From Klebsiella pneumoniae (GTDB taxonomy: Bacteria > Pseudomonadota > Gammaproteobacteria > Pseudomonadales > UBA5518), in NCBI GenBank assembly GCA_945862145.1, contig CAMAXE010000018.1:1-64000 (forward strand): a DNA stretch of 64,000 nt. Direction: 5' to 3'. A model generated the notes under the pieces. That model worked only from the letters and a program-made list of their open reading frames with translations. It did no database searches and was not told where the DNA came from. The position numbers and the translations under genes are program-made. This document shows, one piece after another, positions 40,130 through 59,273 of the stretch. Every line of letters begins with the position of its first letter. Position 1 is the stretch's first letter.

Positions 40130-40154
40130 CACTGCAATTCCCGGAGACCGGCAA

Positions 40155-42572: not shown

Positions 42573-42767
42573 TCGACTTGTTCGGGGGGCGTGCTGCGAA
42601 AGCGCAGTTGGTCTGAAGGGGCCCGTTGAGTGATGCAGTCATGGCCACTGTTCCGATGATTTATGCTGCATCGATTGACTCTGTGAAGTCAGGGCTCACA
42701 CTGCTGCGAGCGAGCGCCTGCGATTGAGTATCACGGGCCGCAGCCCTCGAACAGCAGAGGAACAGAC

Positions 42768-43544
42768 ATGGACATTAGCGGCAAACGTATCGTTGTGACT
42801 GGCTGCGCCCGCGGTATGGGTGCGTCGACTTTGCTCGCCTACGTTAGGGCGGGAGCTCGGGTGATCGGGATGGACATCAATGACACCGATGGTCGGCAGG
42901 TTGCTGGTTTGGCGCATCAGGCCGGTTCGGGCGCCGCGGACTACCTGTCGGTCGATATCTCCAGCAAGGACAGTGTCGAGGCTGCATTCGCGGAAGCAGT
43001 CCGACGTCTGGGAGGCCTGGATGTACTCGCTCATCCGGCCGCGATTCAGCGCTCGTCCGACGCAAGTGATGTCAGCGTCGAGGATTGGGATCTCATGTTC
43101 GACGTGAATGTCAGGGGTACCATGCTTACCAATCAGGTTGCTCACCGTTACATTCGCGAGGCGGGGGGTGGCTCCATCATCAATTTCGGATCGATCTCCG
43201 GGCAGCGGCCCGAACCCGTCGCGGCGGCCTATTCTGCCGCGAAGGGTGCGGTTCACTCGTGGACCAGGACCGCCGCGGCCGCGTGGGGGCAATACAACAT
43301 ACGCGTCAATGCGATCCTGCCGGCAATGGCAACGCCCATGTATCGAGAGGCCATGGAGCGGGCGACCGAAGAGGAGCGAATTGCCAGTTTCTGGCGAAAT
43401 CGCAGTACGATCGCGCTGGGCGGCGAGTACGGCGACCCTGATCGTGATCTCGGCCCAGTTATGGTCTTCCTCGCATCCGATGCGTCCCGCTTCATCACTG
43501 GCCAGTTGCTCCCCGTCGATGGTGGGCAGACTAGCGTGCGCTAA
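42768..43544 (+). CDS. Short-chain dehydrogenase/reductase
   Basis: This 258-residue SDR has the cofactor motif TGCARGMG near residue 11, a Ser in NFGSISG and the catalytic pair in YSAAK. The usual NNAG motif is replaced by HPAA. AGAGGAAC precedes the ATG. It is the first gene of the less GC-rich island and is convergent with the epimerase-like gene. Asp at the end of the second strand (GMDIND) favours NAD. It probably oxidises an alcohol formed in the island pathway, such as a cis-dihydrodiol or secondary alcohol. Confidence 0.87.
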   Translation: MDISGKRIVVTGCARGMGASTLLAYVRAGARVIGMDINDTDGRQVAGLAHQAGSGAADYLSVDISSKDSVEAAFAEAVRRLGGLDVLAHPAAIQRSSDASDVSVEDWDLMFDVNVRGTMLTNQVAHRYIREAGGGSIINFGSISGQRPEPVAAAYSAAKGAVHSWTRTAAAAWGQYNIRVNAILPAMATPMYREAMERATEEERIASFWRNRSTIALGGEYGDPDRDLGPVMVFLASDASRFITGQLLPVDGGQTSVR

Positions 43545-43575
43545 CGTCATCCAGACACGCTGTTCTCTAGCCTCA

Positions 43576-44442
43576 TCACGCGAACCAGCGCTGCAGGCAG
43601 TTTCGGGTAGTCGAGTAGGCACGCCCGGCGGCCTCATCGACATCACGTAGGCGATGCGTATCCGAGAGGAGTTCAATCCCGAAAGTTCCGTCGTAGCCCG
43701 TAGCCTTGATCGCCTCGAGAAAGCCCCTGATATCGAAACATCCCTCTCCGCAGAGCTCCCTGCAGCAGATTGTCTCTTCAAAAAAACCTCGCTCGGGCAC
43801 AGCCGGCCCATCGTCGAGTTCGACATGCGTGATGGCGTCACGAGGTAAATTGGCGATATCGGAGAAGGCGATGTTGCCTCGGGTCATATGCCAGATGTCG
43901 ATGACGAGACCTCCATTGCTGCGCTGGGCCCCGCGCACGACGGCCATCCCGTCCTTGAGGCTTGCCAGGCTCGCGACGGGTAGCAGTTCTATGCCAACAC
44001 GCGTGCCTGCTGTTGCTGCCTCGTCGCAAAGCAGGGCAAATTCCGCTGCCACATGCTCGAGCGGCCAAGTGCCACACGCGAGATCGCTTCCCACCTTGAT
44101 ATGGCGAGCCCCAAGTGCCTCCGCAAACCCCAGCATGCTCCGACGTGCCTGGTCGGACGCCGCACGACGTTCACCATTGCAGAACCAGTCGAGCAGTACC
44201 TCAATCTCTACGTGCTTCAAGCCGTTCGCGTCAAGAATCGTTCGTACTTCCGTGATCGGAGTGGAAGAGAGGATGTGCTCCAGATCGCACAGTTCGAACC
44301 CGAAACCGGTGAAGCCTGCCCGGCCAGCAGCTTCAGCGCGCTGCCTGAAGGTGCGCGGACTCACCACAATGCCCTCCAGCGGTTTGATGTCACCCGCGAG
44401 GGTGAAATAGCTCGCGATGAGGTCAGGTCCTTGTGCAGTCAT
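43576..44442 (-). CDS. Sugar phosphate isomerase/epimerase-like TIM barrel
   Basis: The 288-residue protein has the xylose-isomerase-like barrel pattern. Candidate metal ligands are Glu in VGIELLPV, Asp and His in VIDIWHM, and Glu in TFGIELLSD near the C-terminus. Relatives include inosose dehydratase, 3-dehydroshikimate dehydratase and sugar epimerases. ATG 44442 has GGAG upstream; a longer in-frame start overlaps the next gene. It follows the MDR gene by 25 bp in one transcription unit. An isomerase or dehydratase step on a hydroxylated ring product is possible. Confidence 0.8.
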   Translation of the reverse strand: MTAQGPDLIASYFTLAGDIKPLEGIVVSPRTFRQRAEAAGRAGFTGFGFELCDLEHILSSTPITEVRTILDANGLKHVEIEVLLDWFCNGERRAASDQARRSMLGFAEALGARHIKVGSDLACGTWPLEHVAAEFALLCDEAATAGTRVGIELLPVASLASLKDGMAVVRGAQRSNGGLVIDIWHMTRGNIAFSDIANLPRDAITHVELDDGPAVPERGFFEETICCRELCGEGCFDIRGFLEAIKATGYDGTFGIELLSDTHRLRDVDEAAGRAYSTTRNCLQRWFA

Positions 44443-44467
44443 ATGTTGCTCCGGGGATCGCCCGTAA

Positions 44468-45511
44468 TTACAGAGGCGACAGGGTTGAGGGGTTGCATAT
44501 GCGTACAAGCTTTTTCCCGACGTTTCTGCCGCTGAATTGGTCATGAGAGGCCGCGGGCATGGCGTCAAAACCTTCAGCGATGTCGAGGATCTCGCGGATC
44601 TGTCCAGAACGCATCAACGTTGCCAGTCGGGACACACCTTCCGGGAAGCGATCCGCCAAGTCAAAGAAATAAAAACCCGCCATAGAGCAGCCGCGTACTG
44701 CGAGGATCAGGTGGTTTTTCAGTCCGATGGGCTCCGTGTTGTAAGCTGAAATGCCACCACAAATGACAATCCGGCCCCTCCGGGCCATGTTTGTGAGCGC
44801 GGTGTCGAGGATCGAACCGCCGACGTTGTCGAAGAACACGTCTATACCCGTCGGGCAGAGCTCCTGCAGCCGTAGCGCGATGTCTTCGTTCTTGTAGTCG
44901 ATCGCCGCGTCGAAACCGAGCTGCTCCACCAGCAGCGCGCACTTGCTTGGTCCGCCCGCGATTCCCACCACTCGTGCACCGGAGACACGACCTAGCTGGC
45001 CGGCAACAGTGCCAATTGCCCCCGCTGCGCCCGAGACCACCACTGTATCCCCGGGGCGTGGTCGTCCGATGTCGGCCATACCGAAGTAGGCGCAGAGGCC
45101 GGTCATGCCCAGAGTAGCCAGGCCGGAAGCGAGAGTCGCATCTGCAGGCAGCTTCTGGAGTGGGGCTCCGATGCGATCAACGCTCCCACAGGTCACAAAG
45201 TCGGAGAGTTCGAGGAAGCCGCTGACGGCATCGCCGGGAGCAAAGTCTGGGTGACGTGACGCGATGACTCTGCCCGCGGTGCCGCCACACATCGGCGAGT
45301 CCGGCGGTAGCGGTTTCAGGTGGCCGCCAAGCCCCTTGACCCATGCATGGTTTATCGGGTCGCACGCGAAAAACACGTTCCGAATCAGAACCTCTCCGTC
45401 AGCGGGCTCCGGGATCGACACTTCTCTGCGCCCGAACTGGGCGGTCTCGAGTTGCATCCCCACCTTGCCGGGCGCATCGGTCAACACCCATTGCCGGCTG
45501 ATTTCGTCCAT
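44468..45511 (-). CDS. NADP-dependent MDR oxidoreductase (leukotriene B4 dehydrogenase-like)
   Basis: The 347-residue zinc-free MDR enzyme has CDPINHAWVKG near the N-terminus, GMTGLCAYFG, and the nucleotide motif SGAAGAIGTVAGQLGR; later FFDNVGG and GRIVICGGIS are typical of the alkenal/one or enone reductase group (CurA-like). It likely reduces a conjugated enone with NADPH. It lies downstream of the XRE regulator gene (75 bp) and upstream of the epimerase-like gene on the minus strand. Confidence 0.87.
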   Translation of the reverse strand: MDEISRQWVLTDAPGKVGMQLETAQFGRREVSIPEPADGEVLIRNVFFACDPINHAWVKGLGGHLKPLPPDSPMCGGTAGRVIASRHPDFAPGDAVSGFLELSDFVTCGSVDRIGAPLQKLPADATLASGLATLGMTGLCAYFGMADIGRPRPGDTVVVSGAAGAIGTVAGQLGRVSGARVVGIAGGPSKCALLVEQLGFDAAIDYKNEDIALRLQELCPTGIDVFFDNVGGSILDTALTNMARRGRIVICGGISAYNTEPIGLKNHLILAVRGCSMAGFYFFDLADRFPEGVSRLATLMRSGQIREILDIAEGFDAMPAASHDQFSGRNVGKKLVRICNPSTLSPL

Positions 45512-45586
45512 CGGCTTGGCTCATTTGTCGTCAACTGGAGACTACACCACGAGTGGCAGGTAGCGTAGTGCCGAGATGTAAGATCC

Positions 45587-46192
45587 TCAGCTCCGCGGAG
45601 GCTCAGCTTTGTCCCCAAGAATTTCAGGAGCGAGCATCGCGAGGATTGGGCTTGCCCACTCCACCTGAAGGTTGAACTCCACGCTGCCTGCATTGTCGTT
45701 GACGTGCATCTGTCCATCCTTGTGAAGCAGCCAACCCATTCGCTGAGTGCCGTCGCTCCGGCGGATGATGCACCGATGGTCCCACGCATTCGATGCAATA
45801 CCTGAAGTGTCTGCGTAAAAAAACTCCAGCGAGCCATTCATGAGCTCGAAGCGGTCGCGGTTCTCCCATCGGACTGCAGCGAGGCGCGCAGGATCCGGCA
45901 CCAGATAGGGCACTCGGGTCCATTCTGACGAGCCTGCGGGTAACGGCAGGATGTTCGATTGGGCGTCGACGACGCCGATGACCGGCACCCGAACTTCTCC
46001 GCGCATGAGCTCGACTGCGCCTATTCGCAACGCCCCGCACCAAGCCGCGAGCATATCGATAGTGATACGCCGCGTCCCCTTTTCCAGGCGCTGGATCTGA
46101 GAGGCGTTCAACCCGACACGTGCACCAACCTGCTTGAGGGTCATGCGCCGCTTGAGGCGGAGCTCGCGAAGTATTTCAGGACGTATAGCCAT
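45587..46192 (-). CDS. XRE-family regulator with S24-like sensor domain (paralogue 1)
   Basis: The 201-residue protein has an N-terminal Cro/C1 helix-turn-helix (MTLKQVGARVGLNASQIQRL). The C-terminal domain, starting VPVIGVVDAQSNILPLP, follows the order of S24/LexA-like repressor domains (AAVRW..., IIRRSDGTQ..., QVEWASPI). The positions of the catalytic Ser and Lys are not conserved, so self-cleavage is unlikely and ligand sensing more so. It shares most of this domain with the regulator at 54099. The ATG at 46192 is chosen because it puts the HTH at the usual distance. It is divergent from the SnoaL-like gene. Confidence 0.85.
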   Translation of the reverse strand: MAIRPEILRELRLKRRMTLKQVGARVGLNASQIQRLEKGTRRITIDMLAAWCGALRIGAVELMRGEVRVPVIGVVDAQSNILPLPAGSSEWTRVPYLVPDPARLAAVRWENRDRFELMNGSLEFFYADTSGIASNAWDHRCIIRRSDGTQRMGWLLHKDGQMHVNDNAGSVEFNLQVEWASPILAMLAPEILGDKAEPPRS

Positions 46193-46292
46193 GTCTGCAA
46201 TTGTCCTTTCGAATCTGTGGAGTTGGGCGCAGCTGTCGGCTGCCTTCTGCGATAACAGCATTTTTTTGCCAGTTCCGCAAAGATTTTCCGAT

Positions 46293-46423
46293 TACGTCTG
46301 TTCGTCATCGTTTACAGCCAAACGTGTCTGGTCCAAAGTCGTGTCACAGGTCGCGGGCATGCCAACGCCTGTTGTGACTGGTTCAACGGCAAACGTTTAT
46401 CGTGATTGATCGATACGTCTGTT
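46293..46423. promoter_or_regulatory. Divergent promoter region with direct repeats TACGTCTGTT
   Basis: The 10-base sequence TACGTCTGTT occurs at 46293-46302 and again at 46414-46423, and an 8-bp palindrome AAACGTTT lies at 46391-46398. All are in the 275-bp region between the XRE regulator (minus) and the SnoaL-like/Rieske operon (plus). They are candidates for binding sites of the adjacent regulator. The evidence is sequence repetition and position only. Confidence 0.4.
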
Positions 46424-46467
46424 TCCCGATTCGTGCGGGGCAGATCCCTGAAATGGAGATCTCGCGA

Positions 46468-46935
46468 ATGGACAGGCTGGACAAACTCTGGGCGATGGAA
46501 GAGGTACGCCAGCTCAAAGCCCGCTATTTTCGCTATCTCGATACCCAAGACTGGGTAGGTATGCGGACGATCTGGACAGCGGACGCCATTTTCGATGCGC
46601 GTACAGCCCACACCATCGGAGGCAGCGCTCAGTCTGCACTCTCTGGCAGCGACGATTGGGTATACAGCGGGTGTGATTCCATCGTCGACTTCATCTCTGC
46701 GGTCGCCACCCTCCCGTCCGCCCACCATGGGCATTGCCATGAGATCGAGGTTCTCTCACCGACCGAGGCCCGCGGCATCATCGCCATGGAGGACCGCATA
46801 TGGCCCATCACGGGATCCACGCATCGCACAAGCCTGCACGGTTACGGGCACTACCACGAGGTTTATCGCTGTGTGGACGGACGCTGGCGCATCGCGCGCT
46901 CTCAGTTGACGCGCCTGAACGTATCGAGTTCCTAG
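46468..46935 (+). CDS. SnoaL-like / NTF2-fold protein
   Basis: The 155-residue protein starts MDRLDKLWAMEEVRQLKARY and continues FRYLDTQDW, the typical opening of SnoaL-like_4 proteins, with a C-terminal YHEVYRCVDGRWRI. Members are cyclases, isomerases, dehydratases or small subunits; ring-hydroxylating oxygenase beta subunits share the fold. It is 62 bp upstream of a Rieske alpha gene, but it looks more like the stand-alone enzymes than a true beta subunit. ATG 46468 is preferred over 46453 because GGAG lies 9 bases upstream of it. Confidence 0.8.
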   Translation: MDRLDKLWAMEEVRQLKARYFRYLDTQDWVGMRTIWTADAIFDARTAHTIGGSAQSALSGSDDWVYSGCDSIVDFISAVATLPSAHHGHCHEIEVLSPTEARGIIAMEDRIWPITGSTHRTSLHGYGHYHEVYRCVDGRWRIARSQLTRLNVSSS

Positions 46936-46997
46936 CTCGTGAATCTCGATTATAGAAGTTGTATGGCGAGTCAAATTGTGGTGCGAGGGTAGATCCG

Positions 46998-48374
46998 ATG
47001 AACCAAGTCCGCAAGCCCGGTGAAGCACGTTGCCCGGGCATCAGCGTCCAGGACGTGCTGGCTAGCGACAGTCGCGAGGTGCCGGCTTACCTGCGTGAGC
47101 AACGCTATGAATTCCTTGGTGACGAGGACATCCCTGTAGAGCGGTATACCTCGCCGGAATTCTTCCAACGTGAACTGGAGACGATGTGGACTCGCACGTG
47201 GCAGTGGGCATGCCGTGAAGAGCACATCCCCGAAGCTGGAGATTTCTTTGTTTATGACGTCGGCCCGCTCTCGGTCATCGTCGTGCGGACGGAAAGCGGC
47301 GAGATAAAAGCTCATCGTAATGCCTGCATGCACCGTGGGACGAAGCTCAAGCCCTCATGGAGCGATGGCTGTGCCACGCATATCAGTTGCCCCTACCACG
47401 GTTGGACCTGGAACCTGGATGGCAGTCTCAAACACTTTGCGTGCGAGTGGGATTTCCCGCACGTCGATCCCGAACGGTACGGTCTCGGTAGAGTCTGCGT
47501 CGGCCTGTGGGGCGGATTCGTCTTCATCAACCTCGATCCCAATGCGTGCGCCCTGGAAGACTATCTGGACCCGATGCCGCAACACCTCAGGAGCGAGGTC
47601 TTCGAGAACAGGTATGTTGCAGCACACGTGCAGAAGGAACTGAATTGCAACTGGAAGATCGCATCTGAAGCCTTTCTGGAGGCTTACCACGTCATGACGA
47701 CCCACCCGCAACTCATGCGCACCAATGGCGATGCGAACACCCAGTATGACTTCTATGGTGACAACATCAGCCGGCTAATCAATGTCGCTGGGTTGCCGAG
47801 CGTCTTCCTCGAGGAGACGGTTTCCGAACAGGAGATCATCGACAGCTTCCTTATGGGAGATCGCAGTGACGCGGACGCGGGCCTCGATGTGCCCGAGGGA
47901 GAGACTGCAAGGAGAGTGATGGCCCAGCACCTGCGTGAGGCCGTTGCAGCGGTAGGCGGCGCCGATCTGTCAGCAGTGAGCGATAGTGAAATCGTCGATT
48001 CGATTGCCTATTTCGTGTTCCCCAACCAGCAGTTCTTTTCCGGCGTTGCCTTCCCCATCGTTTATCGATTCCGGCCGCTTGGCATGAGTCACGACAAGTC
48101 GCTTTTTGACCTTCTTATTTTGAAGAACAGGCCAAGCGACGGGACGCCATGGCAGACCGCCCAACCGGTCCGGGTTCGGTCGGAAGAATCCTTTTCAGTC
48201 GTTCCGGGGCTCGATCCATACGTTGCCCATGTCTATGACCAAGACACGGGCAACATGGAGGCCGCGCATGAGGGCGCACTCACCCTTGGGCGTTCCGGCG
48301 TGACGCTTGCGAATTACCAGGAGATCCGTATCCGTCATATGCACCGCACCCTCATGAAGTACATGGACAGATGA
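46998..48374 (+). CDS. Rieske ring-hydroxylating oxygenase alpha subunit (paralogue 1)
   Basis: The 458-residue oxygenase has the Rieske site Cys110-x-His112 and Cys131-x2-His134 (CMHRG...CPYHGW). The iron site helix is EAFLEAYHVMTTH, and ELNCNWK precedes it as in alpha subunits of dioxygenases acting on bulky or alicyclic substrates. No beta subunit with clear similarity follows. It closely resembles the protein at 51757 (shared WQWACREEH, ELNCNWK, PGLDP, YDQDTGN). It should draw electrons from the small Rieske ferredoxin at 57022; a reductase is absent from the island. GAGGG precedes the ATG at 46998. Confidence 0.92.
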   Translation: MNQVRKPGEARCPGISVQDVLASDSREVPAYLREQRYEFLGDEDIPVERYTSPEFFQRELETMWTRTWQWACREEHIPEAGDFFVYDVGPLSVIVVRTESGEIKAHRNACMHRGTKLKPSWSDGCATHISCPYHGWTWNLDGSLKHFACEWDFPHVDPERYGLGRVCVGLWGGFVFINLDPNACALEDYLDPMPQHLRSEVFENRYVAAHVQKELNCNWKIASEAFLEAYHVMTTHPQLMRTNGDANTQYDFYGDNISRLINVAGLPSVFLEETVSEQEIIDSFLMGDRSDADAGLDVPEGETARRVMAQHLREAVAAVGGADLSAVSDSEIVDSIAYFVFPNQQFFSGVAFPIVYRFRPLGMSHDKSLFDLLILKNRPSDGTPWQTAQPVRVRSEESFSVVPGLDPYVAHVYDQDTGNMEAAHEGALTLGRSGVTLANYQEIRIRHMHRTLMKYMDR

Positions 48375-48489
48375 GCACAGTGCGCCCCATGGGTTCCGCC
48401 GGAGCTCTCACAACGCAACCTCGGCCGGTCTTCGGCGGTCAGCAAAATCAACGGCCTGGTACACATCGTAGCCGCGAGGATCGCATCAG

Positions 48490-49185
48490 ATGGCAACAGT
48501 GCTGATCACAGGGGCTGCGCGTGGTCTTGGCTATGAACTCGCGAAACAATTTTCCGAGTCGGGTAACCGGGTCTTTGCTACTTCCCGGAGCCTCGAAAAA
48601 GCGGACAAGCTGAGAGCCGTTGCGGCGGCCTCTGGCGGCCGCATGACTGTGCACCGCATGGACATCGGAGACATGGAGTCCGTGAAGGCTTGTGCGGCGG
48701 AACTCGGCGAGGTGCCGATCGATATCCTGGTCAACAACGCCGGCGTGTGGGGTGGTCTCGCGACGCAGGTATTTGAAAACATGGACTACGCGAACTGGGC
48801 CCACGAAATGAACATCATGACGATGGGTCCCTTCCGTGTACTGCAGACATTCATGCCCAACATACTTGCGTCCGAGCAGAAGAAGATCGTCACGATGACC
48901 AGTCAGGTGGCCGCACACAGCTACAAGAAAATCATCGGCTATTCCTATGCTGCCGCCAAGGCGGGCCTCAACCGGTTGATCACTGCTCTGGCGCGCGAAT
49001 TTGCAGAAAAGGGTGTGACTATGATTCTGCTTCACCCGGGATGGATCCGCACCGATATGGCGGGGCCTGTTGCGGATACTGACCCCCCGGATGCCGCCGC
49101 AATGAATATCGAACTCATCAATCGCCTTACACCCGCCGACAACGGAAAGTTTCTGAAATGGACGGGTGAAGGTCACGAGTGGTGA
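48490..49185 (+). CDS. Short-chain dehydrogenase/reductase
   Basis: The 231-residue SDR has TGAARGLG, LVNNAGVW and the catalytic Ser-Tyr-Lys in MTSQVA and YSYAAAKAG. Its ATSRS after the second strand suggests NADP. The C-terminus (FLKWTGEGHEW) is short and resembles carbonyl-reductase-type SDRs in which the C-terminal region is a single-subunit form. It lies 115 bp after the first Rieske gene and before the TonB receptor. It probably acts on the oxygenase product. GAGGA precedes the ATG. Confidence 0.87.
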   Translation: MATVLITGAARGLGYELAKQFSESGNRVFATSRSLEKADKLRAVAAASGGRMTVHRMDIGDMESVKACAAELGEVPIDILVNNAGVWGGLATQVFENMDYANWAHEMNIMTMGPFRVLQTFMPNILASEQKKIVTMTSQVAAHSYKKIIGYSYAAAKAGLNRLITALAREFAEKGVTMILLHPGWIRTDMAGPVADTDPPDAAAMNIELINRLTPADNGKFLKWTGEGHEW

Positions 49186-49263
49186 GGGCGGGAGAACATC
49201 CGGACAAAGACCGATTTTTTTCGTTAGACCTGATTCTAATAAACCTTCCGTGAGGAGAATGAC

Positions 49264-51702
49264 ATGACCACCATATCTACGTCTCGTCGCCCGGTTCGAA
49301 AACTGTTGCTCGCTTCGGCAGTCGCCGCCGCCAGCACCTTTTCGGCCCTAGACGCCTATGCGCAGCAGGGAGGACTCGAGGAGATCCTTGTCACGGCCCG
49401 AAAACAGACCGAGTCGGCACAGGATGTTCCTGTGGCGGTAACCGTGTTTAGCCAACAGGAGTTGGAGAAGAGGGACCTCACATCCTTGGAGAAGATCGCC
49501 GCCTCCAATCCCGGTCTCATTGTCGGCCGGGGCGGTAACGGCTCAGGTGCGCAGCTGACCCTGCGTGGCATCAGCTCGCAGCCGATCTCGGTGGGCATCG
49601 AGCAATCAATCGCGGTGGTCATCGACGGCGTGTATTACGGCCAGGGGCGCACGATCAACGAGGGGCTTCTGGATTCCTCGCGGGTAGAGATGCTGAAAGG
49701 GCCACAGGCCCTGTTTTTCGGCAAGAATGCTACGGCCGGCGTCATCGCGGTTACCACGGCGGATCCGACGGAGGAGTTCGAAGCGACCGCGCGTGCCGGC
49801 TACGAGGTCAATGCCCAGGAAACCTTTTTTGAAGGTTCCGTATCCGGTCAGCTGGCAGAAAACTTGCTGGGTCGTCTTGCCATGCGCTGGTCGGACATGA
49901 GCGGCAGTTATATGAACAACAAGGGATTTGATGTCACGAACGTGACGCTCGATGCCGCACCCTTGCTTTCCACAGGTAGCTATGTTTTCAACCCGCACTT
50001 ACAGCGCAAGTCGGAAGAGAATCTGCCGGGTACGAATGAGCGGTTCTTGCGTGGCACCCTGAAGTGGATGCCCTCGGAGCAGTTGACCAACACGTTCAAG
50101 GCGAGCTACATGCGGCGGGCCGACGATGCGAACGCCTGGAACTACGTTCCGGTCGGGTGTGCTAGCGGGTTCACCCAGGTCAATGCGAGCGTGCCCTGTC
50201 GTGACAGCTTCGATGTGTACATCGGCATGTTCCCCGAGGATATCGCAGGGAACATTCCCTATGGTCGGGACGACGGTTCCCCCTTCAACCTCTACAAGTC
50301 TTATTCCTTGACCGACAACATCAACTACGAGCTTGAGGACGCCACGATCTCCTCGGTTTTCAACTACCAGTGGAACGAGAACCAGTGGGGATGCTCCTGC
50401 CAGAACATCACTACGCCGGCCTCTTTCATTGCGGCCACTGAGCAGTCGGAGTGGTCTGCGTGGTCGAACGAGACACGCCTCCAGACGACATTTGATGGCT
50501 CAGTGAACCTGATGCTCGGATTCTATTATCAGGACAGTAATCGCAAGCATGACCAGGCGGCCAACTTCGGGGGCATCGAGGACTCCAGCCAGCCACTGGC
50601 CACTCGTTATGTTGCTTACGACAAGCAGTCGGAATCCGACGGTGAGACGTGGTCAGCCTTCGGCCAGTTAAACTGGCAGATGACATCCCAGCTCGAACTG
50701 GCCACGGGTGTTCGGTACATAAAGGAAGAGAAAGACAGCTGGCTTAACCAGAGCTACATTAACGTGCTGTTGCAGGGGCTCTTCCCGGTAAACCGCCCGA
50801 TCGAGGCTAATCAGAGCTTTGACAACTGGTCGCCGGAGGTCTCGCTGACCTACCAGATTAGCGACGACCTCACCGTTTACACCGCTTACAAAACCGCCTA
50901 CAAATCGGGAGGGTTCTCGAATAGTGCGCTCATTGTCACCGCCACTACGCTCGACGACATTGCCTTCGATCCTGAGAAAGCCAAGGGCTTCGAGGTTGGC
51001 TTGAGGTCGGTTCTGCTCGACAACCAGCTGCGCTTCAATGCTACCTATTTCAATTACAAGTACGAGAATCTGCAGGTCGATTACTTCAATTCCATCACCT
51101 TCCAGTTCATCACCACCAACGCAGGTGCTGCCCGCACACAGGGCGTGGAGCTGGATCTCGAGTACGCGCCGTCGACAATCGATGGCCTGACCCTGCATGC
51201 CAGCGTGAATTACGACAAGGCGAAGTATCTTGAATACATCGCGCCCTGCTACGGTGGCCAGTCTATCGCGGCGGGATGTACGACCACATTCGGTGCGGGT
51301 CCCGGGCAGGATCTCAGCGGTGAGGCGACCTCGATGGCGCCGAAATGGACAGGGGCAATCGGTCTCAATTATGAGCGGATGCTAACTGACAGCTTGCTGC
51401 TTGGGCTCACTGTCGATGCACGCTACAGCGCCGACTACAACGCGTCGAACTTTGCAGCGCCGCTGGCTGAACAGAGTTCCTACTGGAGCCTTGATGCATC
51501 GCTGCGGCTCACTGCCCAGAACGAAAAATGGGAGGTCGCGGTGATAGGCCGTAACCTTACCAACGAGTTTTACATGGGGGGGGTGCAGGATCTTCCTAAC
51601 AGTGGTGTGAATACGGGGACAGCGAACGGTATACCCGCTGATCAACTGGCTCTTGCCAGCCTGCCGCGTACGGTGAGAATGCAGGTTACGTGGCGCTATT
51701 GA
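49264..51702 (+). CDS. TonB-dependent outer-membrane receptor
   Basis: The 812-residue receptor has a signal peptide (1 to about 34, ending DAYAQ), LEEILVTARKQTESAQDVPV leading into the plug, LRGIS and VEMLKGPQALFFGKNATAG in the plug, and terminates in VTWRY with the aromatic barrel end. GAGGAGA precedes the ATG. It sits between the two Rieske oxygenase genes and ends in an intrinsic terminator, which indicates import of the island's substrate. It is unlike the receptor at 2541 in most of the barrel, so a different ligand is likely. Confidence 0.93.
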   Translation: MTTISTSRRPVRKLLLASAVAAASTFSALDAYAQQGGLEEILVTARKQTESAQDVPVAVTVFSQQELEKRDLTSLEKIAASNPGLIVGRGGNGSGAQLTLRGISSQPISVGIEQSIAVVIDGVYYGQGRTINEGLLDSSRVEMLKGPQALFFGKNATAGVIAVTTADPTEEFEATARAGYEVNAQETFFEGSVSGQLAENLLGRLAMRWSDMSGSYMNNKGFDVTNVTLDAAPLLSTGSYVFNPHLQRKSEENLPGTNERFLRGTLKWMPSEQLTNTFKASYMRRADDANAWNYVPVGCASGFTQVNASVPCRDSFDVYIGMFPEDIAGNIPYGRDDGSPFNLYKSYSLTDNINYELEDATISSVFNYQWNENQWGCSCQNITTPASFIAATEQSEWSAWSNETRLQTTFDGSVNLMLGFYYQDSNRKHDQAANFGGIEDSSQPLATRYVAYDKQSESDGETWSAFGQLNWQMTSQLELATGVRYIKEEKDSWLNQSYINVLLQGLFPVNRPIEANQSFDNWSPEVSLTYQISDDLTVYTAYKTAYKSGGFSNSALIVTATTLDDIAFDPEKAKGFEVGLRSVLLDNQLRFNATYFNYKYENLQVDYFNSITFQFITTNAGAARTQGVELDLEYAPSTIDGLTLHASVNYDKAKYLEYIAPCYGGQSIAAGCTTTFGAGPGQDLSGEATSMAPKWTGAIGLNYERMLTDSLLLGLTVDARYSADYNASNFAAPLAEQSSYWSLDASLRLTAQNEKWEVAVIGRNLTNEFYMGGVQDLPNSGVNTGTANGIPADQLALASLPRTVRMQVTWRY

Positions 51703-51710
51703 TGAGATCG

Positions 51711-51748
51711 ACGCGCGGCCGGCAGACCGGCCGCGCGTGAGCTTTTTT
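51711..51748 (+). terminator. Rho-independent terminator after the TonB receptor
   Basis: A perfect 12-bp stem (51711-51722 with 51727-51738, ACGCGCGGCCGG) closes a CAGA loop and is followed by GAGC and six T residues at 51743-51748. It lies 8 bases past the receptor stop. The next gene starts 9 bases after the T run, so the second Rieske gene would receive only read-through or needs a promoter inside the receptor gene. Confidence 0.9.
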
Positions 51749-51756
51749 GATTCCGG

Positions 51757-53160
51757 ATGCCGCACATGACTATGCAGGATAACCCGACTTATACGCCCTC
51801 GCGCCCCGCCGGCAGCCCCTCTACCCAGGAACTCATCCACCGGGATGGCAGGCCTGTTCCGCCGATCTTCGAGTTAGAGTGTGGTCGCTTCCTGGGCGAT
51901 CAGGACATTCCTTTCGAGCGCTACACCAGTCAGGCGATTTTCGATGCGGAAATGGAATTGCTGTGGAAGCGCACGTGGCAATGGGCTTGCCGTGAGGAGC
52001 ATCTGGCAGAGTCCGGAGACTACTATGTTTATGAGATCGGGCCCCACTCGGTGCTGATTCTGCGTGGCGATGATGGAGGCATTCATGCCTTCGTCAATTC
52101 GTGCCTGCACCGGGGTACCAAATTGAAGCCCGGGCATTCCAGTGGTAGTTGCGCCGAGATCCGCTGTCCCTTTCACGGTTGGCGCTGGACGCTCGCCGGC
52201 GAACTCGCTCATATACCTTACGCGTGGGACGTGCCTGACCTGAGCGGACGTGACTTCTCCCTCCCGCGTGTACAGGTAGCGACTTGGGCCGGATTCGTGT
52301 TCATCAACCTTGATGAGGGAGCGCCGCCGCTAGCGGAGTACATGGCGCCGATACCTGGGCATCTTGATCGCTTCGACATCGGCAATCGCCATGTGTCGCT
52401 CCATATAGAGAAAGAGCTCAACTGCAACTGGAAAGCCGCAAAGGAAGCCTTCATCGAGAACTACCACACCCAGGAGACTCATCCGCAGCTCCTCTTCGGC
52501 AGCAACGACGAGGGCACGCAGTATGACGTCCTGAGTGAAAATGTCTCGCGGTTTTACTGTGCGTTCGGTGTGCCGAGTCCGCTCATCCAGCCTCCGCCGA
52601 CGGAGCAGGAGATGGTCGATGCCATGCTCGTTGGCGATCGCCAGGCCCTCGGCAACCAGGTCGTCGTTCAGCCGGGAGAGTCGGCACGCATAGTCATGGC
52701 GCGAGTACTGAGGAAAGTGCTCTCGGACGCAACCGGTCGCGATTTCAGCGGGTTTACGGACACTGAGATGATCGATGTCTTCCAGTACACACTGATTCCA
52801 AACATCATTATATTCCCCGCGCTGTCTTTGCCGATGGCGTATCGTTTCAGGCCGCTTGGCGAGGATCCGAACCGCTCGCTCTTCGAGATCATGTTCCTTC
52901 GGCCGGCGCCGGCTGAGGGGCCGTGGCCCGATCCGACGCAGCCGTTCCGCCTCAAAGAGGAAGACAGCTTTACCACCGTTCCGGGTCTCGATCCGCTGCT
53001 CGGTGAGGTTTATGACCAGGACACCGGCAACCTCCGCGCTCAGCAGGAGGGTTTTCGCGCTGCGAGAAAGCGCGGTGAGACACTGCTCAACTACCAGGAG
53101 GTACGGATCCGGCACCTGCATCTTGCGGTGCAGCGCTACCTCGGGGATGCAATTCCCTAG
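51757..53160 (+). CDS. Rieske ring-hydroxylating oxygenase alpha subunit (paralogue 2)
   Basis: The 467-residue oxygenase is a paralogue of the one at 46998. The Rieske site reads CLHRG...CPFHGW and the iron-site helix EAFIENYHTQETH. It shares WQWACREEH, ELNCNWK, YRFRPLG, VPGLDP and YDQDTGN with the first. Two alpha subunits may attack different positions or successive intermediates. Starts at 51757, 51766 and 51772 are all possible, since none has a strong ribosome site. It begins immediately after a terminator, which is unusual. Confidence 0.92.
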   Translation: MPHMTMQDNPTYTPSRPAGSPSTQELIHRDGRPVPPIFELECGRFLGDQDIPFERYTSQAIFDAEMELLWKRTWQWACREEHLAESGDYYVYEIGPHSVLILRGDDGGIHAFVNSCLHRGTKLKPGHSSGSCAEIRCPFHGWRWTLAGELAHIPYAWDVPDLSGRDFSLPRVQVATWAGFVFINLDEGAPPLAEYMAPIPGHLDRFDIGNRHVSLHIEKELNCNWKAAKEAFIENYHTQETHPQLLFGSNDEGTQYDVLSENVSRFYCAFGVPSPLIQPPPTEQEMVDAMLVGDRQALGNQVVVQPGESARIVMARVLRKVLSDATGRDFSGFTDTEMIDVFQYTLIPNIIIFPALSLPMAYRFRPLGEDPNRSLFEIMFLRPAPAEGPWPDPTQPFRLKEEDSFTTVPGLDPLLGEVYDQDTGNLRAQQEGFRAARKRGETLLNYQEVRIRHLHLAVQRYLGDAIP

Positions 53161-53242
53161 AGAATCCTGCTTGCCTGGGTTTCAGCGTGAGAGGTGTCAT
53201 GCCGATAGACTTTGCTCACCAAGAAACGGAACTGGGGGAATT

Positions 53243-54055
53243 ATGGGACGTCTCGATGGCAAGCGCGCGGTTGTGATCGGCGCCTCACTCGAAGGTAATA
53301 TGGGTCAGGCGATTGCGCGGCGCTTTCGCGCAGAGGGTGCCCAGGTCGTTGTCGCTAGCCGTAATCTGGCTGCGAGCGATAAGTTCGCCCGATCGATAGG
53401 TGCGCTTGCGGCGGCCTGCGACATCACCCACCGTACAGATCTCCGTGCGCTCGCAGCTTTCGCGACAGCGAATATTGGCGGACTGGACATCGCGGTCAAT
53501 TCCACGGGTCTGGCGCTTGGCGCGCCATTTCTCGAGTTCGGTGAGCGCGACCTGGACACAATGATCGGGCTACAGTTCAAAGGCGCGTTCTTCTTCTTGC
53601 AGGAGATGGTCGCGGCGATGCTGGACACGGGTGGCTCGATCATCCAGATCAGTTCAGGTGTCGCCCAGCATTCGACCACCGTTGACGGAGGTTTCGAGGC
53701 TTACATGGGCACCAAGGCCGGCATCGACCAAGTGGTTCGTGCTGTTGCCAACCAGTTCGGTCGTGCCGGTATCCGTGTGAACAGCATCGCGGCAGGTCAT
53801 ACTGACACGCCGATGCACCATGCGAACTTCGGGGGAGACATTCCGGCGTGGATGAAGGCTTGTTTTGCTGATGCTACGCCGATGGGCCACTATGGTACCT
53901 GCGAAGATATTGCCGCTGCCGCCGTGTGGCTCGCCAGTGACGAATGCTTCATGACCGGGGATGTGTTGCAGGCCAACGGGGGACTGACGTTGCGTCGGAA
54001 TCCGCTCAAGGCGGATCTTGAACGCTGGCAGAGCGACTGGGAGCAGCGAGACTGA
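53243..54055 (+). CDS. Short-chain dehydrogenase/reductase
   Basis: This 270-residue SDR has a variant nucleotide motif GASLEGNMG, VNSTG in place of NNAG, Ser in QISSG and the catalytic YMGTK. The enoyl-reductase-like spacing in the nucleotide motif is notable, but Tyr-x3-Lys is that of classic SDRs. GGGGGAA precedes the ATG. It follows the second Rieske oxygenase by 82 bp and precedes the second XRE regulator, as one likely unit. A diol or ketone reductase role is likely. Confidence 0.86.
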   Translation: MGRLDGKRAVVIGASLEGNMGQAIARRFRAEGAQVVVASRNLAASDKFARSIGALAAACDITHRTDLRALAAFATANIGGLDIAVNSTGLALGAPFLEFGERDLDTMIGLQFKGAFFFLQEMVAAMLDTGGSIIQISSGVAQHSTTVDGGFEAYMGTKAGIDQVVRAVANQFGRAGIRVNSIAAGHTDTPMHHANFGGDIPAWMKACFADATPMGHYGTCEDIAAAAVWLASDECFMTGDVLQANGGLTLRRNPLKADLERWQSDWEQRD

Positions 54056-54098
54056 TGTTGTTCCGATGCCGGTGATACATGCACGCGAGGTCTCGGTA

Positions 54099-54716
54099 AT
54101 GCAGACGGCTCGCCACGGCTTGACTCCGGCGCCACATTTCAACCTTGAGCTGCTGCGTACGACACGACTCGCGCGTCGCCTCACGCTCCAGCAAGTTGCC
54201 GATCGTGTAGGCGTTAGTTCAGCCCAGATCCAGCGTCTGGAGAAGGGCGAGCGGCACATGACCATGGATATGCTCGAGGCCTGCTGCGCTGTGCTGGAAC
54301 TCGATCCGCTGCGCATTTTCAGCGCGGACTTTCATGTACCCATCATCGGTGTGGTCGATTTCCGGTCGAGTATCCTCCCGCTGCCCGCGGGCTCCGCGGT
54401 GACAACCCCGGTTCCACCGATAGTGCCGGATACCCATCGACTGGCCGCAGTGCGCTGGGAGGCTCGCCATCGCTTCGAACTGCTGAACGGTTCCCTGATG
54501 TTTTTCTATGCCGATGTTGAGAGTGTCTCGCCATCCGCTTGGAATCGACGCAGCATCATTCGGCGCAGCGATGGAACGCAGCGTACTGGTTGGCTGTACC
54601 GGCAGGACGGCCAGGTGCACATCAATGACGTCGTGGGTCCTGTAGAGTTTAATGTGCAGGTCGAGTGGGCGAGTCCCATACTTGCTACGATAAATCCCTG
54701 TGCCTATCCCGGCTGA
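54099..54716 (+). CDS. XRE-family regulator with S24-like sensor domain (paralogue 2)
   Basis: The 205-residue protein has an HTH (LTLQQVADRVGVSSAQIQRL) followed by VPIIGVVDFRSSILPLPAGS and a domain nearly collinear with that of the regulator at 45587 (RFELLNGSL, FFYAD, IIRRSDGTQR, EFNVQVEWASPI). The S24 catalytic serine region aligns with ARHRFEL and the lysine region with TGWLY, so both catalytic residues are lost. GAGG lies before the ATG at 54099; an upstream ATG at 54066 is possible. It is last in the plus-strand run and convergent with the EthD gene. Confidence 0.85.
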   Translation: MQTARHGLTPAPHFNLELLRTTRLARRLTLQQVADRVGVSSAQIQRLEKGERHMTMDMLEACCAVLELDPLRIFSADFHVPIIGVVDFRSSILPLPAGSAVTTPVPPIVPDTHRLAAVRWEARHRFELLNGSLMFFYADVESVSPSAWNRRSIIRRSDGTQRTGWLYRQDGQVHINDVVGPVEFNVQVEWASPILATINPCAYPG

Positions 54717-54718
54717 AC

Positions 54719-55081
54719 TCAGGCCTGCATGTCGGATTCGTACTCTGTCAGTATGAATTGACGCATTTTCGGGCGATCGAACAGTCGCTCCTCGTCTACG
54801 ACGATCTCCTGCCACATGGCCGGCTCGGCAGCGGCACCTATGAACGCGTCCATTCGCGCCTGATTCTCGAACCACACCTCCATGACCACGTCGTGCTCGC
54901 TTTCCTCAACCGCGCCGGTCACCACGTGCGGGATGGGTTGCAGATAACGGCGTACGTAGCGGCAGGCGTGCGGCTTGAGCACTTTCTCGCCGATCACGCG
55001 GTGGCGGGTTTCATAGTGCTCCATGAACTCTTCCATGCTCATGCCCGGCCGGCGTTTGAGCAGCGTGAGCAGCTTGATCAT
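54719..55081 (-). CDS. EthD-domain protein
   Basis: The 120-residue protein shows the ferredoxin-like EthD pattern: MIKLLTLLKRRPGMSMEEF, then HYETRHRVIGEKV, and YDVVMEVWF-like strands later. EthD proteins accompany catabolic oxygenases and are thought to help as small lyases, isomerases or structural partners. It is convergent with the regulator (2-bp gap) and 45 bp downstream of the bicupin gene on the minus strand. Confidence 0.83.
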   Translation of the reverse strand: MIKLLTLLKRRPGMSMEEFMEHYETRHRVIGEKVLKPHACRYVRRYLQPIPHVVTGAVEESEHDVVMEVWFENQARMDAFIGAAAEPAMWQEIVVDEERLFDRPKMRQFILTEYESDMQA

Positions 55082-55126
55082 AGCGCTCTCCTAGACCGGG
55101 GCTGCAGTGTCGCCCCGTCCGTGGGT

Positions 55127-56185
55127 TCATTGGGCCCCGAGCGGCTCCCATGCGAGCAAAGAGGTGTCCGAGGGAAAGCTGCTACGCAGCAGTCGAACGC
55201 CAGCCGCGTCGGCCATCGCCTTGTAGGTCATCCACGAGAAGACGAAACTGATCGGTGTGCCACGTCCACTGTCGAACTGTATCGGGCCGAATAGGTTTGC
55301 TGTGTAGATGAGGTCCCTGTCCGTGAGTCTCTGCGTGGCATCGTGACGTGCGCCTGCGGGCTCGTAGAACCATACGCCGGGACCGTATCCCTCTGGCGGG
55401 CCGGCCCGGTAGCCAATTCGTCCGCTAAGAACCATGAAGTCTGCAGCGCCGAGGTGGTAATGCGGAGGTGCTACGCCATTGTGACGGACGATGACTGAAA
55501 CGAATCCGGTTTCTTCGCTGACCCGAAGGATCTTCAGTCCGACGTCAGGGGTGTCCGGATTGCCAAGCCAGGGCAGGGCCCGTGTATCCACGAAATGCGC
55601 ATGCGAGCTGGGAGCGTCAAGAACAGAGCCGGTGACGAGTCCCGCCGCATCGCCTGAACTCATGGCGAGCGGCGCGAATGCGTCAGGCGCATGCCGCTCC
55701 TGGATGCACTGCGCAAGCGAGTCGGGCACCAACGCGACTCCATGTGCATGCGCCGCTTTACGGATGTCCATGCTAGTCAGTATGGACTTTATGGTTTTTC
55801 CGCCGGCCGTCAGGAAGGCGATCGGCCCGTGGCAGGTTACCAGCAGTTCGGTGTCGACTCCTGCGCGGATGCCATCTAACCGCGAATTCGCTGGAATGTA
55901 GCCAAAAGTGCCTGCGCCAAAATTCCCTGCGATCCCGTTGCCTGCACAGCTGAGTTCACCAGACAGCACCAGCATGTCCATGGCGCCCAGATGCACTGTG
56001 GCTGGCCATGCGGTGCCAGCTGCCAATCGCATTACCGACGTGAATACCCCGGTCTCGGCGCTCGCGCGCAGGGGTTTCACTGCTAGTCCATTCGCGTGAG
56101 GTAGGGCTATCCACGGCAGAGTATTGGTATCTACGCCGCCCTCAATTCCAGTGGGGTCGAAGTCCGGATTGTACGATACGGTCAT
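55127..56185 (-). CDS. Tandem cupin protein (ChrR/acetophenone dioxygenase-like)
   Basis: The 352-residue protein consists of two homologous cupin halves, each starting VDT-x2-LPW and containing HLGA-x-D-x2-VLSG. The second half has the metal-site PPHYH; in the first half the same place is WPATVH, missing one histidine. Similar single or double cupins are 2,4'-dihydroxyacetophenone dioxygenase and ChrR-like sensors. A C-C-cleaving dioxygenase with one active and one structural half is plausible. Start is ATG 56185; a TTG/ATG-type extension to 56236 lacks support. It is divergent from the VOC gene. Confidence 0.78.
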   Translation of the reverse strand: MTVSYNPDFDPTGIEGGVDTNTLPWIALPHANGLAVKPLRASAETGVFTSVMRLAAGTAWPATVHLGAMDMLVLSGELSCAGNGIAGNFGAGTFGYIPANSRLDGIRAGVDTELLVTCHGPIAFLTAGGKTIKSILTSMDIRKAAHAHGVALVPDSLAQCIQERHAPDAFAPLAMSSGDAAGLVTGSVLDAPSSHAHFVDTRALPWLGNPDTPDVGLKILRVSEETGFVSVIVRHNGVAPPHYHLGAADFMVLSGRIGYRAGPPEGYGPGVWFYEPAGARHDATQRLTDRDLIYTANLFGPIQFDSGRGTPISFVFSWMTYKAMADAAGVRLLRSSFPSDTSLLAWEPLGAQ

Positions 56186-56257
56186 GCTTTGGCCTCGTGT
56201 TGCGTCGGGCTGAGACGCCTGAGCGCGATTGGACAAGCGAGTTTGAGAATAAGCGCC

Positions 56258-56269
56258 GTTTCGCGAAAC
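56258..56269. promoter_or_regulatory. Candidate operator palindrome GTTTCGCGAAAC
   Basis: A perfect 12-bp palindrome lies in the 248-bp divergent region between the bicupin gene (minus) and the VOC gene (plus), about 70 bases from the bicupin start. Its position suits control of both genes. It does not match the repeats in the promoter at 46193-46467 except for a loose AAAC/GTTT resemblance to AAACGTTT. Confidence 0.4.
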
Positions 56270-56433
56270 CGTGGGGACTTCAGTCGACGACGCCGCTCGT
56301 TCCGATGGTAATCAATTCTCGCCGGATGTGGATAGGAGAATGTGCTGGCAGCCGCCGCTATCCAGTGAGTCTTGATCTATCCCCTGCGCGCGGATGACAC
56401 TTGACCAGATACATTACGTCAGGAGAGCGATCC

Positions 56434-56910
56434 ATGATCCGTGGCATCCACCATGTAGCATTGGCCACCAGCGATATCGACCGTCTGGTCAGGTTCTATC
56501 GGGAGGGGTTTGGATTCGAGGTAGTCGCATCCATGGGTTGGGAAGTGGGATCCACCCGGATAGATGAAATTGTCGGTCTCAAGGATTCGTCCTGTCGGCA
56601 GGTGATGATGAGGGCGGGCAACACCCACATCGAGATTTTTCAGTACAAGACGCCTTCGGGCCGGCCGGTTGATCCGCGGCGGCCACCGAGTGACCACGGC
56701 TACACTCATTTCTGTGTTGATGTCACGGATATCGACTACGAGTACGAGCGGATGAAGTCGCTCGGGATGACTTTCAATTGCCCTCCGCCCACGCGAGAGG
56801 AGTTGGGTGGCGGTGCTATCAGGGCAACCTATGGTCGTGATCCGGAGGGCAATATCATCGAGCTCCAGGAGGTACTGGACACGAGCCACCCGATGTATCT
56901 GAAGGTCTGA
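56434..56910 (+). CDS. VOC-family (glyoxalase/extradiol-fold) protein
   Basis: The 158-residue protein has IHHVALATSDIDRLVRFYREG at the N-terminus and HFCVDVTDIDYEYERMK and DPEGNIIELQE later, a single pair of VOC modules. Likely metal ligands are His in IHHVA, Glu in THIEIFQ, His in YTHFCV and Glu in IIELQE, so it can be catalytic. Roles in this fold range from lactoylglutathione lyase and epimerase to ring-cleaving dioxygenase. AGGAGAG precedes the ATG. In the island it may isomerise or cleave an intermediate. Confidence 0.85.
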   Translation: MIRGIHHVALATSDIDRLVRFYREGFGFEVVASMGWEVGSTRIDEIVGLKDSSCRQVMMRAGNTHIEIFQYKTPSGRPVDPRRPPSDHGYTHFCVDVTDIDYEYERMKSLGMTFNCPPPTREELGGGAIRATYGRDPEGNIIELQEVLDTSHPMYLKV

Positions 56911-57021
56911 TGCGTCTGCTGTTGAGGGCATTCCAAGGTTGGCCCTCGGAGACGGCTGCCTGTTACGATCGCGACGGTTTCGGTAATTATAGGGCCTTCG
57001 TTCCAAGGATATGAGTAACTA

Positions 57022-57336
57022 ATGAGCCAACGCTTTCATCCTACCGTGGCGGTGGACGCTGTTGCTGGCGATTCATCGCTCGAAGCCTGCGTCGCCGGGA
57101 TATCAATTCTGATCTGTAACTCGGGAGGGAATCTGTTTGCTATCCAGAACCGCTGTCCCCATCAGGGGAAGCCACTGGCAGGAGGTCGCGTACGTCGCGG
57201 AACGATAGCGTGTCCGCTCCATGGGATGCGTTTCGAACTGGGCAGTGGCAAGCCGCTCGGCCAACTCACGGCAGCTTCGCTCAAGGTTTTTTCGACCCGT
57301 CTCGTTGATGGAATTATAGAAGTAGCGGTTGACTGA
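57022..57336 (+). CDS. Rieske-type [2Fe-2S] ferredoxin
   Basis: The 104-residue protein is a stand-alone Rieske ferredoxin with CPHQGKPL and CPLHGMRF as cluster ligands. It is of the size of BphA3/CarAc-like electron carriers. It is 111 bp after the VOC gene and the last gene of the island. The likely clients are the two Rieske alpha subunits, which lack a carrier next to them. The reductase for it is not in the island; the reductase at 7481 has its own plant-type ferredoxin domain and would be an unusual partner. Confidence 0.88.
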   Translation: MSQRFHPTVAVDAVAGDSSLEACVAGISILICNSGGNLFAIQNRCPHQGKPLAGGRVRRGTIACPLHGMRFELGSGKPLGQLTAASLKVFSTRLVDGIIEVAVD

Positions 57337-59168: not shown

Positions 59169-59273
59169 TGTGCGTGGAGCGTGGCGATGCAGACCGAATA
59201 TAGCAGCGACCGAACACGCGCCGGCAAAGGCCCGCTGTTGGCAGAGAGCCTGGCGTCGCGGCAGTGCGGTTCC

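Follow-up and report, generated by a model that had tools for sequence, protein, structure and literature searches.

A transferred catabolic island with two Rieske oxygenases, a bicupin and a pair of XRE regulators in contig CAMAXE010000018.1

Several sphingomonad plasmid clusters, namely those of N. aromaticivorans pNL2, Novosphingobium ES2-1, Croceicoccus marinus pCME4A9I and Sphingobium TomTYG65 pTomTYG65a, hold parts of the gene kit considered here. They share TonB receptors, several Rieske alpha subunits, SnoaL/NTF2 proteins and short-chain dehydrogenases (SDRs), some of them also a medium-chain dehydrogenase/reductase (MDR), an EthD protein, a VOC protein and a Rieske ferredoxin, and their annotation gives TetR, LacI, LuxR or LysR regulators and names no substrate. 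A cluster of the same kind was sought in open-licence PMC text, where the accessible parts of the papers, including PMC8399759, PMC12746152 and PMC10653915, offered analogies and no match. Here we describe an island of 15 genes in the window, that is, the whole stretch of 64,000 nucleotides that was analysed (positions 1 to 64,000 of contig CAMAXE010000018.1, assembly GCA_945862145.1). The island is real, transferred, catabolic in kind and incomplete as a pathway. As a whole it is, in our judgement and with moderate confidence, best explained as a horizontally acquired catabolic cluster for importing, oxidising and cleaving a cyclic compound, equipped with a pair of regulators that seem to have lost autocleavage.

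Borders, sister genomes and base composition

The original prediction, made from the letters of the window, held that these genes had been transferred, and this is well supported by a shift in G+C and codon use, by the different segment that sister genomes carry at this locus and by synteny elsewhere. Six genomes of the genus, the present one included, were compared. On the left, homology to the sister genomes ends at the stop of a gene for a DAO-GCV_T fusion protein; on the right, it is back at 57636 in G005 (1499 bp) and at 57577 in G004 (154 bp only), and this border lies about 240-300 bp past the end first predicted. Relatives of the DAO-GCV_T gene stand at 90% in G001 and G004, G005 has the gene split into two pieces (97-99%), and G002 and G003 gave no match. 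In G004 the gene is followed on the same contig by other genes and, some 13 kb on, by a 154-bp match to window positions 57577-57729, beyond which nothing matches, the right flank being thinly supported in that genome. In G005 the end of the gene (94.5%) lies on one contig and the right flank, 57636-59133 (96.7% over 1499 bp), on another; the G004-type segment is found on both contigs at 91-94% identity, and their overlap of 254 bp puts the flanks about 11.8 kb apart. These alignments indicate that the sisters hold another segment, of about 12 kb, at the place of the island, and that a replacement has occurred. Of the six, the present genome alone has a close version of the first oxygenase of the island (RO1); none above 39% exists in the five other genus genomes, and the 39% relative in one of them probably corresponds to another gene of the present genome.

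According to Pfam, none of the 15 genes encodes an integrase or a transposase; repeats of at least 20 nt (seed 12) were not detected at the borders, the only tRNA of the window lies at 373-456, and neither an integrative and conjugative element nor an integron nor a composite transposon is recognisable at the island. Given that integrase, border repeat and nearby tRNA are all missing, recombination through the flanks appears to be favoured. A megablast search of plasmids with the island returned no near match.

The G+C fraction is 0.668 in 1-42572, 0.588 in 42573-57576, 0.599 in 57577-59168 and 0.667 in 59169-64000, and the two hand counts on which the shift had first been based (34 G+C in 50341-50400, 42 in 33001-33060) are exact. 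The computed profile likewise bears the shift out: the mean G+C at third codon positions (GC3) is 0.82 for 19 flank genes against 0.54-0.79 for the 15 island genes, and the two groups differ in GC3 (Mann-Whitney P 8e-6) and in codon adaptation (P 9e-6), in a comparison that favours the flank genes, which were picked from long open reading frames and doubled as the codon reference set. Composition also supplies a point on the other side, since low G+C extends into 57577-59168, DNA that is shared with a sister genome; a fourth SDR gene (58383-59168) has lowered G+C too, yet is 96.7% common to the sister. Low G+C alone is therefore no marker of the transferred part and, because it continues past the island, composition alone would misplace the right border.

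The surroundings show variation of their own. A gene for a xanthine/uracil-type permease (59274-60962, the second gene rightward) has native G+C but went unmatched at E 1e-60 in all five of the remaining genus genomes, which suggests that the locus is variable beyond the island too. With its two flanks (38669-42572 and 57577-59168) and stretches L080, L085 and L089, the locus resembles a replacement hot spot, at which two sisters share the alternative of about 12 kb. The DAO-GCV_T fusion protein (40155-42572) belongs to a large paralogue family with eight matches, itself counted, in this genome (E <= 1e-60).

Gene content, recurrence and proposed chemistry

As had been read from the sequence, 42768-57336 holds 15 consecutive genes of the families named in the original prediction (Table 1). 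Pfam names 13 of them, namely three SDRs, an MDR, a xylose-isomerase-like TIM barrel, a SnoaL_4 protein, two Rieske/Ring_hydroxyl_A alpha subunits (RO1 and RO2), a TonB receptor, an EthD protein, a VOC protein, a Rieske ferredoxin and a ChrR-type bicupin, and it recognises only the helix-turn-helix (HTH) in the two XRE proteins. With the starts chosen in this analysis, all 15 run from ATG to a single stop; several of these starts fall inside the open reading frames first listed, which corrects that listing. The paralogues are paired as claimed, with 60% identity over 186 aa between XRE1 and XRE2 and 46-47% between RO1 and RO2.

Table 1. Features of the transferred segment (window coordinates)
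Feature	Position	Strand	Basis or remark
Transferred segment	42573..57606 (right border uncertain, about 57577-57636)		limits of homology to sister genomes
Candidate operator GTTCCGATG, copy 1	42650..42658	+	upstream of SDR1; weak
SDR1, short-chain dehydrogenase	42768..43544	+	Pfam; 72% to a gene in L027 (gammaproteobacterial metagenome-assembled genome, MAG)
TIM-barrel isomerase/epimerase/dehydratase-like protein (AP_endonuc_2)	43576..44442	-	Pfam; PDB Lmo2234, weaker QuiC, IolI
MDR ene-reductase, CurA-like	44468..45511	-	Pfam; NCBIfam CurA 255 bits, below the cut-off of 440
XRE1 regulator, HTH and putative degenerate S24-like domain	45587..46192	-	Pfam HTH; profile comparison; catalytic columns
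SnoaL_4 protein	46453..46935	+	Pfam; PDB matches E <= 0.001
RO1, Rieske oxygenase alpha subunit	46998..48374	+	Pfam; motifs CMH..CPYH, EAYH....H, QDTGN
SDR2, immediately 3' of RO1	48490..49185	+	Pfam; after RO1 in 16/18 loci
TonB-dependent receptor	49264..51702	+	Pfam plug and barrel; 60% relatives near RO1/RO2 in L015, L017
Intrinsic terminator, gap between TonB gene and RO2	51711..51748	+	12-bp perfect stem, T6 run
RO2, Rieske oxygenase alpha subunit	51757..53160	+	Pfam; motifs
SDR3, adjoins RO2	53243..54055	+	Pfam; 68-77% relatives beside RO2 in L017, L018, L020, L036, L039
Candidate operator GTTCCGATG, copy 2	54060..54068	+	start of XRE2; weak
XRE2 regulator, XRE1 paralogue	54099..54716 (possible start 54066)	+	Pfam HTH
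EthD-domain protein	54719..55081	-	Pfam
Bicupin, predicted 3-His C-C cleaving dioxygenase	55127..56185	-	two ChrR-cupin stretches; PDB 2o1q, 3bal
Candidate operator GTTCCGATG, copy 3	56299..56307	+	bicupin/VOC gap; weak
VOC/glyoxalase-superfamily protein	56434..56910	+	Pfam
Rieske ferredoxin	57022..57336	+	Pfam

Both oxygenases carry the marks of Rieske alpha subunits (CxH..CxxH, the His/His of the mononuclear iron, PF00355 with PF00848), and both retain the Rieske ligands, the two iron-site histidines and a Glu three residues ahead of the first of these. Among the oxygenase rows of at least 400 aa (one shorter row was dropped), the Rieske motif is present in 42/42 and a Glu precedes YH in 38, the other four being pattern mismatches. 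No Rieske beta subunit is listed by Pfam in the island.

Relatives of the two oxygenases were collected by a scan of a genome collection that starts from two exact peptide patterns, and the 36 loci obtained are to be read as a sample. The gene order recurs elsewhere, as had been expected of a transferred unit. RO1 is present at 67-73% in 18 of these loci and is followed by SDR2 in 16, the exceptions being a stretch that ends soon after RO1 and L022, where the bicupin comes directly after RO1; a bicupin (55-59%) lies near RO1 in seven of the 18, and the order RO1-SDR2-bicupin is seen in the gammaproteobacterial MAGs L022 (without SDR2), L024, L025, L027, L029, L030 and L032. Matches to RO1, SDR2, RO2 and the TonB receptor stand within about 12 kb in four of the 18 (the MAGs L015 and L017, L018 from Croceicoccus ponticola and L020 from Novosphingobium marinum), three of which also hold SDR3; two TonB matches and one RO2 match are cut there by the end of the stretch. 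The MAG of L015 bears a planctomycete name, but its genes resemble sphingomonad ones. A different VOC gene is found near RO1 in 9/18 loci, upstream and divergent in seven of them.

A role in import plus oxidation, as originally proposed, is well supported, not least by the TonB receptor inside the cluster. In the route that we envisage, this receptor would import a poorly permeable cyclic compound, which RO1 and RO2, as alpha-only oxygenases with a Glu at the bridging position, would hydroxylate or dihydroxylate with electrons supplied by the Rieske ferredoxin of the island and by a reductase whose gene lies elsewhere. SDR2 and SDR3, each a conserved neighbour of one oxygenase, would turn the alcohols into ketones, and the bicupin, with a single three-His iron site in its second domain, would cleave a C-C bond of the alpha-hydroxyketone or beta-diketone so formed, much as 2,4'-dihydroxyacetophenone dioxygenase (DAD) and Dke1 do. 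The SnoaL protein, the CurA-like MDR, the EthD protein and the TIM barrel may then isomerise, dehydrate and reduce the fragments towards central metabolism, the parts given to the MDR, SnoaL and EthD proteins resting on family resemblance (CurA-like; BaiE relatives). We infer the order oxygenate, oxidise, cleave from the protein families and from the succession of a Rieske oxygenase, a dehydrogenase and a cupin in a row. As to the substrate, for which lignin-derived and terpenoid compounds had been suggested, nothing specific supports lignin, and a terpenoid or steroid-like compound is weakly favoured. The pathway is also less than the complete one first proposed: there is one Rieske ferredoxin, yet Pfam finds no ferredoxin reductase, CoA ligase, acyl-CoA dehydrogenase, thiolase or beta-oxidation gene among the 15, nor a certain ring-cleavage enzyme, unless the VOC protein acts as one. 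In the absence of a reductase and of lower-pathway genes, the island must feed into genes elsewhere. Nor are its plus-strand genes probably one transcript, given the strong terminator between the TonB gene and RO2 (-30.3 kcal/mol for 51703-51756, z -4.4).

According to the accessible parts of the sources, DAD holds with three histidines the iron that cleaves an alpha-hydroxyketone, and Dke1 likewise uses three histidines and iron on a beta-diketone (PMC4219425, PMC4019311). In the second cupin of the island bicupin, His 241, 243 and 280 are invariant in 7/7 sequences, the third following 37 residues after the pair, which gives a three-His site of the Dke1/DAD type; the first cupin domain has lost the His ligands. 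A PDB search with the bicupin sequence returned two chains, 3bal (acetylacetone-cleaving enzyme) and 2o1q (one label of which reads putative acetylacetone dioxygenase), and the structure model (pLDDT, the predicted local distance difference test, 75.8) gave VIA Z scores of 17.4 and 16.3 for 2o1q and 3bal, respectively, among many other cupins.

Several observations weigh against this reading. Both 2o1q and 3bal align, by sequence and by fold, to the ligand-less first cupin; a sequence match over the iron site, as a single cupin of the Dke1/DAD type would give, is absent, and our confidence is lower because the PDB matches fall on the first domain. The bicupin fold is moreover common to oxalate decarboxylase, quercetinase and storage proteins (Foldseek, VIA), and RO1, the one oxygenase searched, has only distant relatives among solved structures. 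No bicupin stands in the four two-oxygenase loci, nor was one found in those four genomes, from which it follows that the action of RO1 and RO2 does not everywhere require a bicupin.

Degradation of steroids or bile acids, with the SnoaL protein as hydroxysteroid dehydratase, the SDRs as hydroxysteroid dehydrogenases and the TonB receptor as steroid importer, is an alternative that we consider unlikely, although three lines of evidence speak for it. All three PDB matches of the SnoaL protein at E <= 0.001 are the bile-acid 7alpha-dehydratase BaiE (best E 9e-9); TonB receptors of Sphingobium Chol11 are more abundant on bile acids, in whose degradation a 7-hydroxysteroid dehydratase acts, as the accessible part of the paper states (PMC8399759); and a 42-kb plasmid stretch of Sphingobium TomTYG65, from tomatine-treated soil, shares the TonB receptor (49%), SDR3 (54%), EthD (49%), ferredoxin (45%) and RO1 (40%), with EthD and ferredoxin some 20 kb from the other shared genes. 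SnoaL_4 is, however, a broad family, Pfam finds no KshA- or KstD-type family among the 15 genes, and the available part of the tomatine paper is silent on the TomTYG65 plasmid cluster. The gene set of a 9,10-seco steroid cluster is likewise not seen among the 15, though the VOC gene could still encode an extradiol dioxygenase.

It is similarly doubtful that the island is a mosaic without a single pathway, in which RO1-SDR2-bicupin from marine proteobacteria and TonB-RO2-SDR3 from sphingomonads, each with its own regulator copy, would serve different compounds at a variable locus. The closest relatives in 20 loci, with lineage labels taken from record titles, are gammaproteobacterial for SDR1, the bicupin and the VOC protein, and belong to sphingomonads or other alphaproteobacteria for the TonB receptor, SDR3 and RO2, a split by which the island is probably a composite. 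L036 and L039, too, carry RO2-SDR3 with no RO1 in the neighbourhood (the genome of L036 also contains the RO1 locus L026), and the sisters hold another segment at the locus. Against separate functions stand the four loci of other genomes in which RO1, SDR2, RO2 and TonB genes lie together, and a GC3 and codon use that are broadly uniform across the island, the ferredoxin and EthD genes excepted. Far less probable is a quaternary or N-methylated (betaine-like) substrate: GbcA is the best NCBIfam model for both oxygenases (137.6 and 118.1 bits), CntA is among the PDB matches of RO1 and the bridging Glu of those 38 of 42 rows is what we take to be a mark of the GbcA/CntA group, but the scores are far under the equivalog cut-off of 670 bits and cover the first half only, and a TonB receptor, a bicupin and SDR partners are ill-suited to a small polar amine.

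The XRE1/XRE2 regulator family

The regulators were searched with one protein against 94 relatives (E 1e-10) and 368 class genomes (E 1e-12), some genomes overlapping, and with profiles against 26 genomes with oxygenase relatives (representing 29 of the 36 loci) and 397 phylum genomes. The family is present in five of the 26, each time at E 3e-18 or better, in 0/94 of the other relatives and in 0/368 of the other class genomes; the single match among the 397 other phylum genomes is an intact phage-type S24 repressor. The difference between 5/26 and 1/397 has a Fisher P of 3e-6, the 26 genomes being largely marine by title and unmatched in habitat and lineage. In two of the five genomes (L060 and L061) the regulator adjoins TonB and DUF3604 genes and lies no more than about 10 kb from a Rieske gene, while the stretches fetched from the other three, two of them contigs below 6 kb, hold no Rieske oxygenase. 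No match to the regulators was found in plasmids, and the two matches in viral contigs cover the HTH region.

The C-terminal 130 residues of XRE1 and XRE2 match no Pfam family above chance. When a profile of the six-member family was compared by hhalign with a phage-CI-type S24 profile, the two matched at a probability of 94.8 (P 5e-8, single comparison) over 126 columns, nearly end to end, whereas unrelated control profiles reached 0.1-1.6. The CI profile consists of ten domains of our choosing, two from G762 that were found by the regulators' own profile and eight from the 25 phage and 7 plasmid records that one G762 repressor matched, a set that leans towards the query. The column of the catalytic Ser holds N, A, A, P, P and P in the six members, that of the Lys holds Gly in 6/6, and the Ala-Gly cleavage pair is gone in all of them; the ten reference CI domains, in turn, keep the Lys in 10/10, the Ser in 9/10 and the Ala-Gly in 9/10. 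A Parlo phage repressor, which matched XRE1 weakly over its whole length (E 0.1) and entered the alignment though not the profile, also lacks Ser, Lys and Ala-Gly, and the loss may accordingly predate the tie to catabolism.

Based on these residues, we tentatively propose that a CI-like repressor lineage has been domesticated for catabolism: all three parts for RecA-dependent self-cleavage are gone, the Lys site is fixed as Gly-Trp, and the dead protease domain would control TonB/Rieske clusters, and travel with them, as a small-molecule sensor. Ligand sensing by the domain is conjectural; autocleavage seemingly being lost, XRE1 and XRE2 are presumably switched by a ligand and not by RecA. The competing view, that they are HTH repressors of the ordinary type whose beta-rich sensor domain is of other descent and that the S24 similarity is convergence or chance, seems to us improbable in the face of the CI-type profile match and its low controls, although a number of results count for it and against a repressor ancestry. 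Pfam calls no S24 in either protein; a LexA-rich S24 profile (30 S24 loci, 25 tried, 13 aligned, a GDSM-type motif being required) gave no match, with or without the G762 repressor (hhalign probability 0.3-0.5); single-profile matches are marginal (E 0.0006-0.005 for 3/10 CI domains); and the XRE1 model made from the two window copies is too poor to use (pLDDT 42.7).

Possible operators were looked for as well. The nonamer GTTCCGATG, chosen because three regions share it, has three copies in the 64 kb, each at an island gene start or border; a shared word of this kind arose in 38/2000 simulated sets and three copies in 5/100 window shuffles. Exact palindromes are not enriched (4 against a shuffle mean of 2.5).

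The regulator also forms part of a conserved unit with TonB and DUF3604 genes. It stands beside DUF3604 in L060:11296-16595, L061:14083-18957 and L062:7753-10382, with the TonB gene in the first two, DUF3604 being assigned by Pfam in L060 and L061 and by eye in L062; no paper joining DUF3604 with Rieske proteins was found in open-licence PMC text. Near the regulator in L061, an alphaproteobacterial MAG, positions 1878-11750 hold two Rieske oxygenases (one 51% to RO1), an MDR and a SnoaL gene and, judged by eye, two P450-like genes.

Comparison with known systems

The locus provides a within-genus example of how a 15-gene catabolic module can take the chromosomal place of a different segment with no integrase present. 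RO1-SDR2-bicupin is a recurring three-enzyme unit of marine proteobacteria whose proposed order of reactions lends itself to testing, and the rare regulator family may have made a metabolite sensor from a self-cleaving phage repressor.

Among proteins, the island bicupin is like Dke1 and DAD in having a cupin with a three-His site, and unlike these single cupins in being two fused ones, of which the sequence-matching one is without ligands. XRE1 and XRE2 seem to resemble phage CI and LexA S24 repressors in the order of an HTH followed by a putative S24-like domain, and differ from them in that cleavage pair, Ser and Lys are missing from 6/6 members. A further parallel is the LexA of Synechocystis PCC 6803, which, in the accessible part of the source, is thought to be uncleavable and tied to carbon metabolism, its Ala-Gly and Ser having been replaced (PMC3091678). 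The regulators share with it these replacements and, presumably, a role moved away from SOS; the Synechocystis protein is a true LexA, whereas the island regulators appear to be a separate CI-like family in which the Lys has given way to Gly as well.

Among gene clusters, the gammaproteobacterial RO1-SDR2-bicupin module has RO1 at 67-72% and, over three comparisons, the bicupin at 55-62%, in the same order (L022 without SDR2), and the stretches compared, some of them short, hold no relative of RO2 (above 51%), SDR3 or the TonB receptor. The sphingomonad plasmid clusters differ from the island by their lower identity (best TonB 46-51%, oxygenases 30-51%) and, in the five stretches compared, by the absence of a bicupin or XRE-family match. 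Judged from these sequences, the gene kit of the island is of a known kind, and its combination with a bicupin and a pair of presumed dead repressors appears to be new within the searches made.

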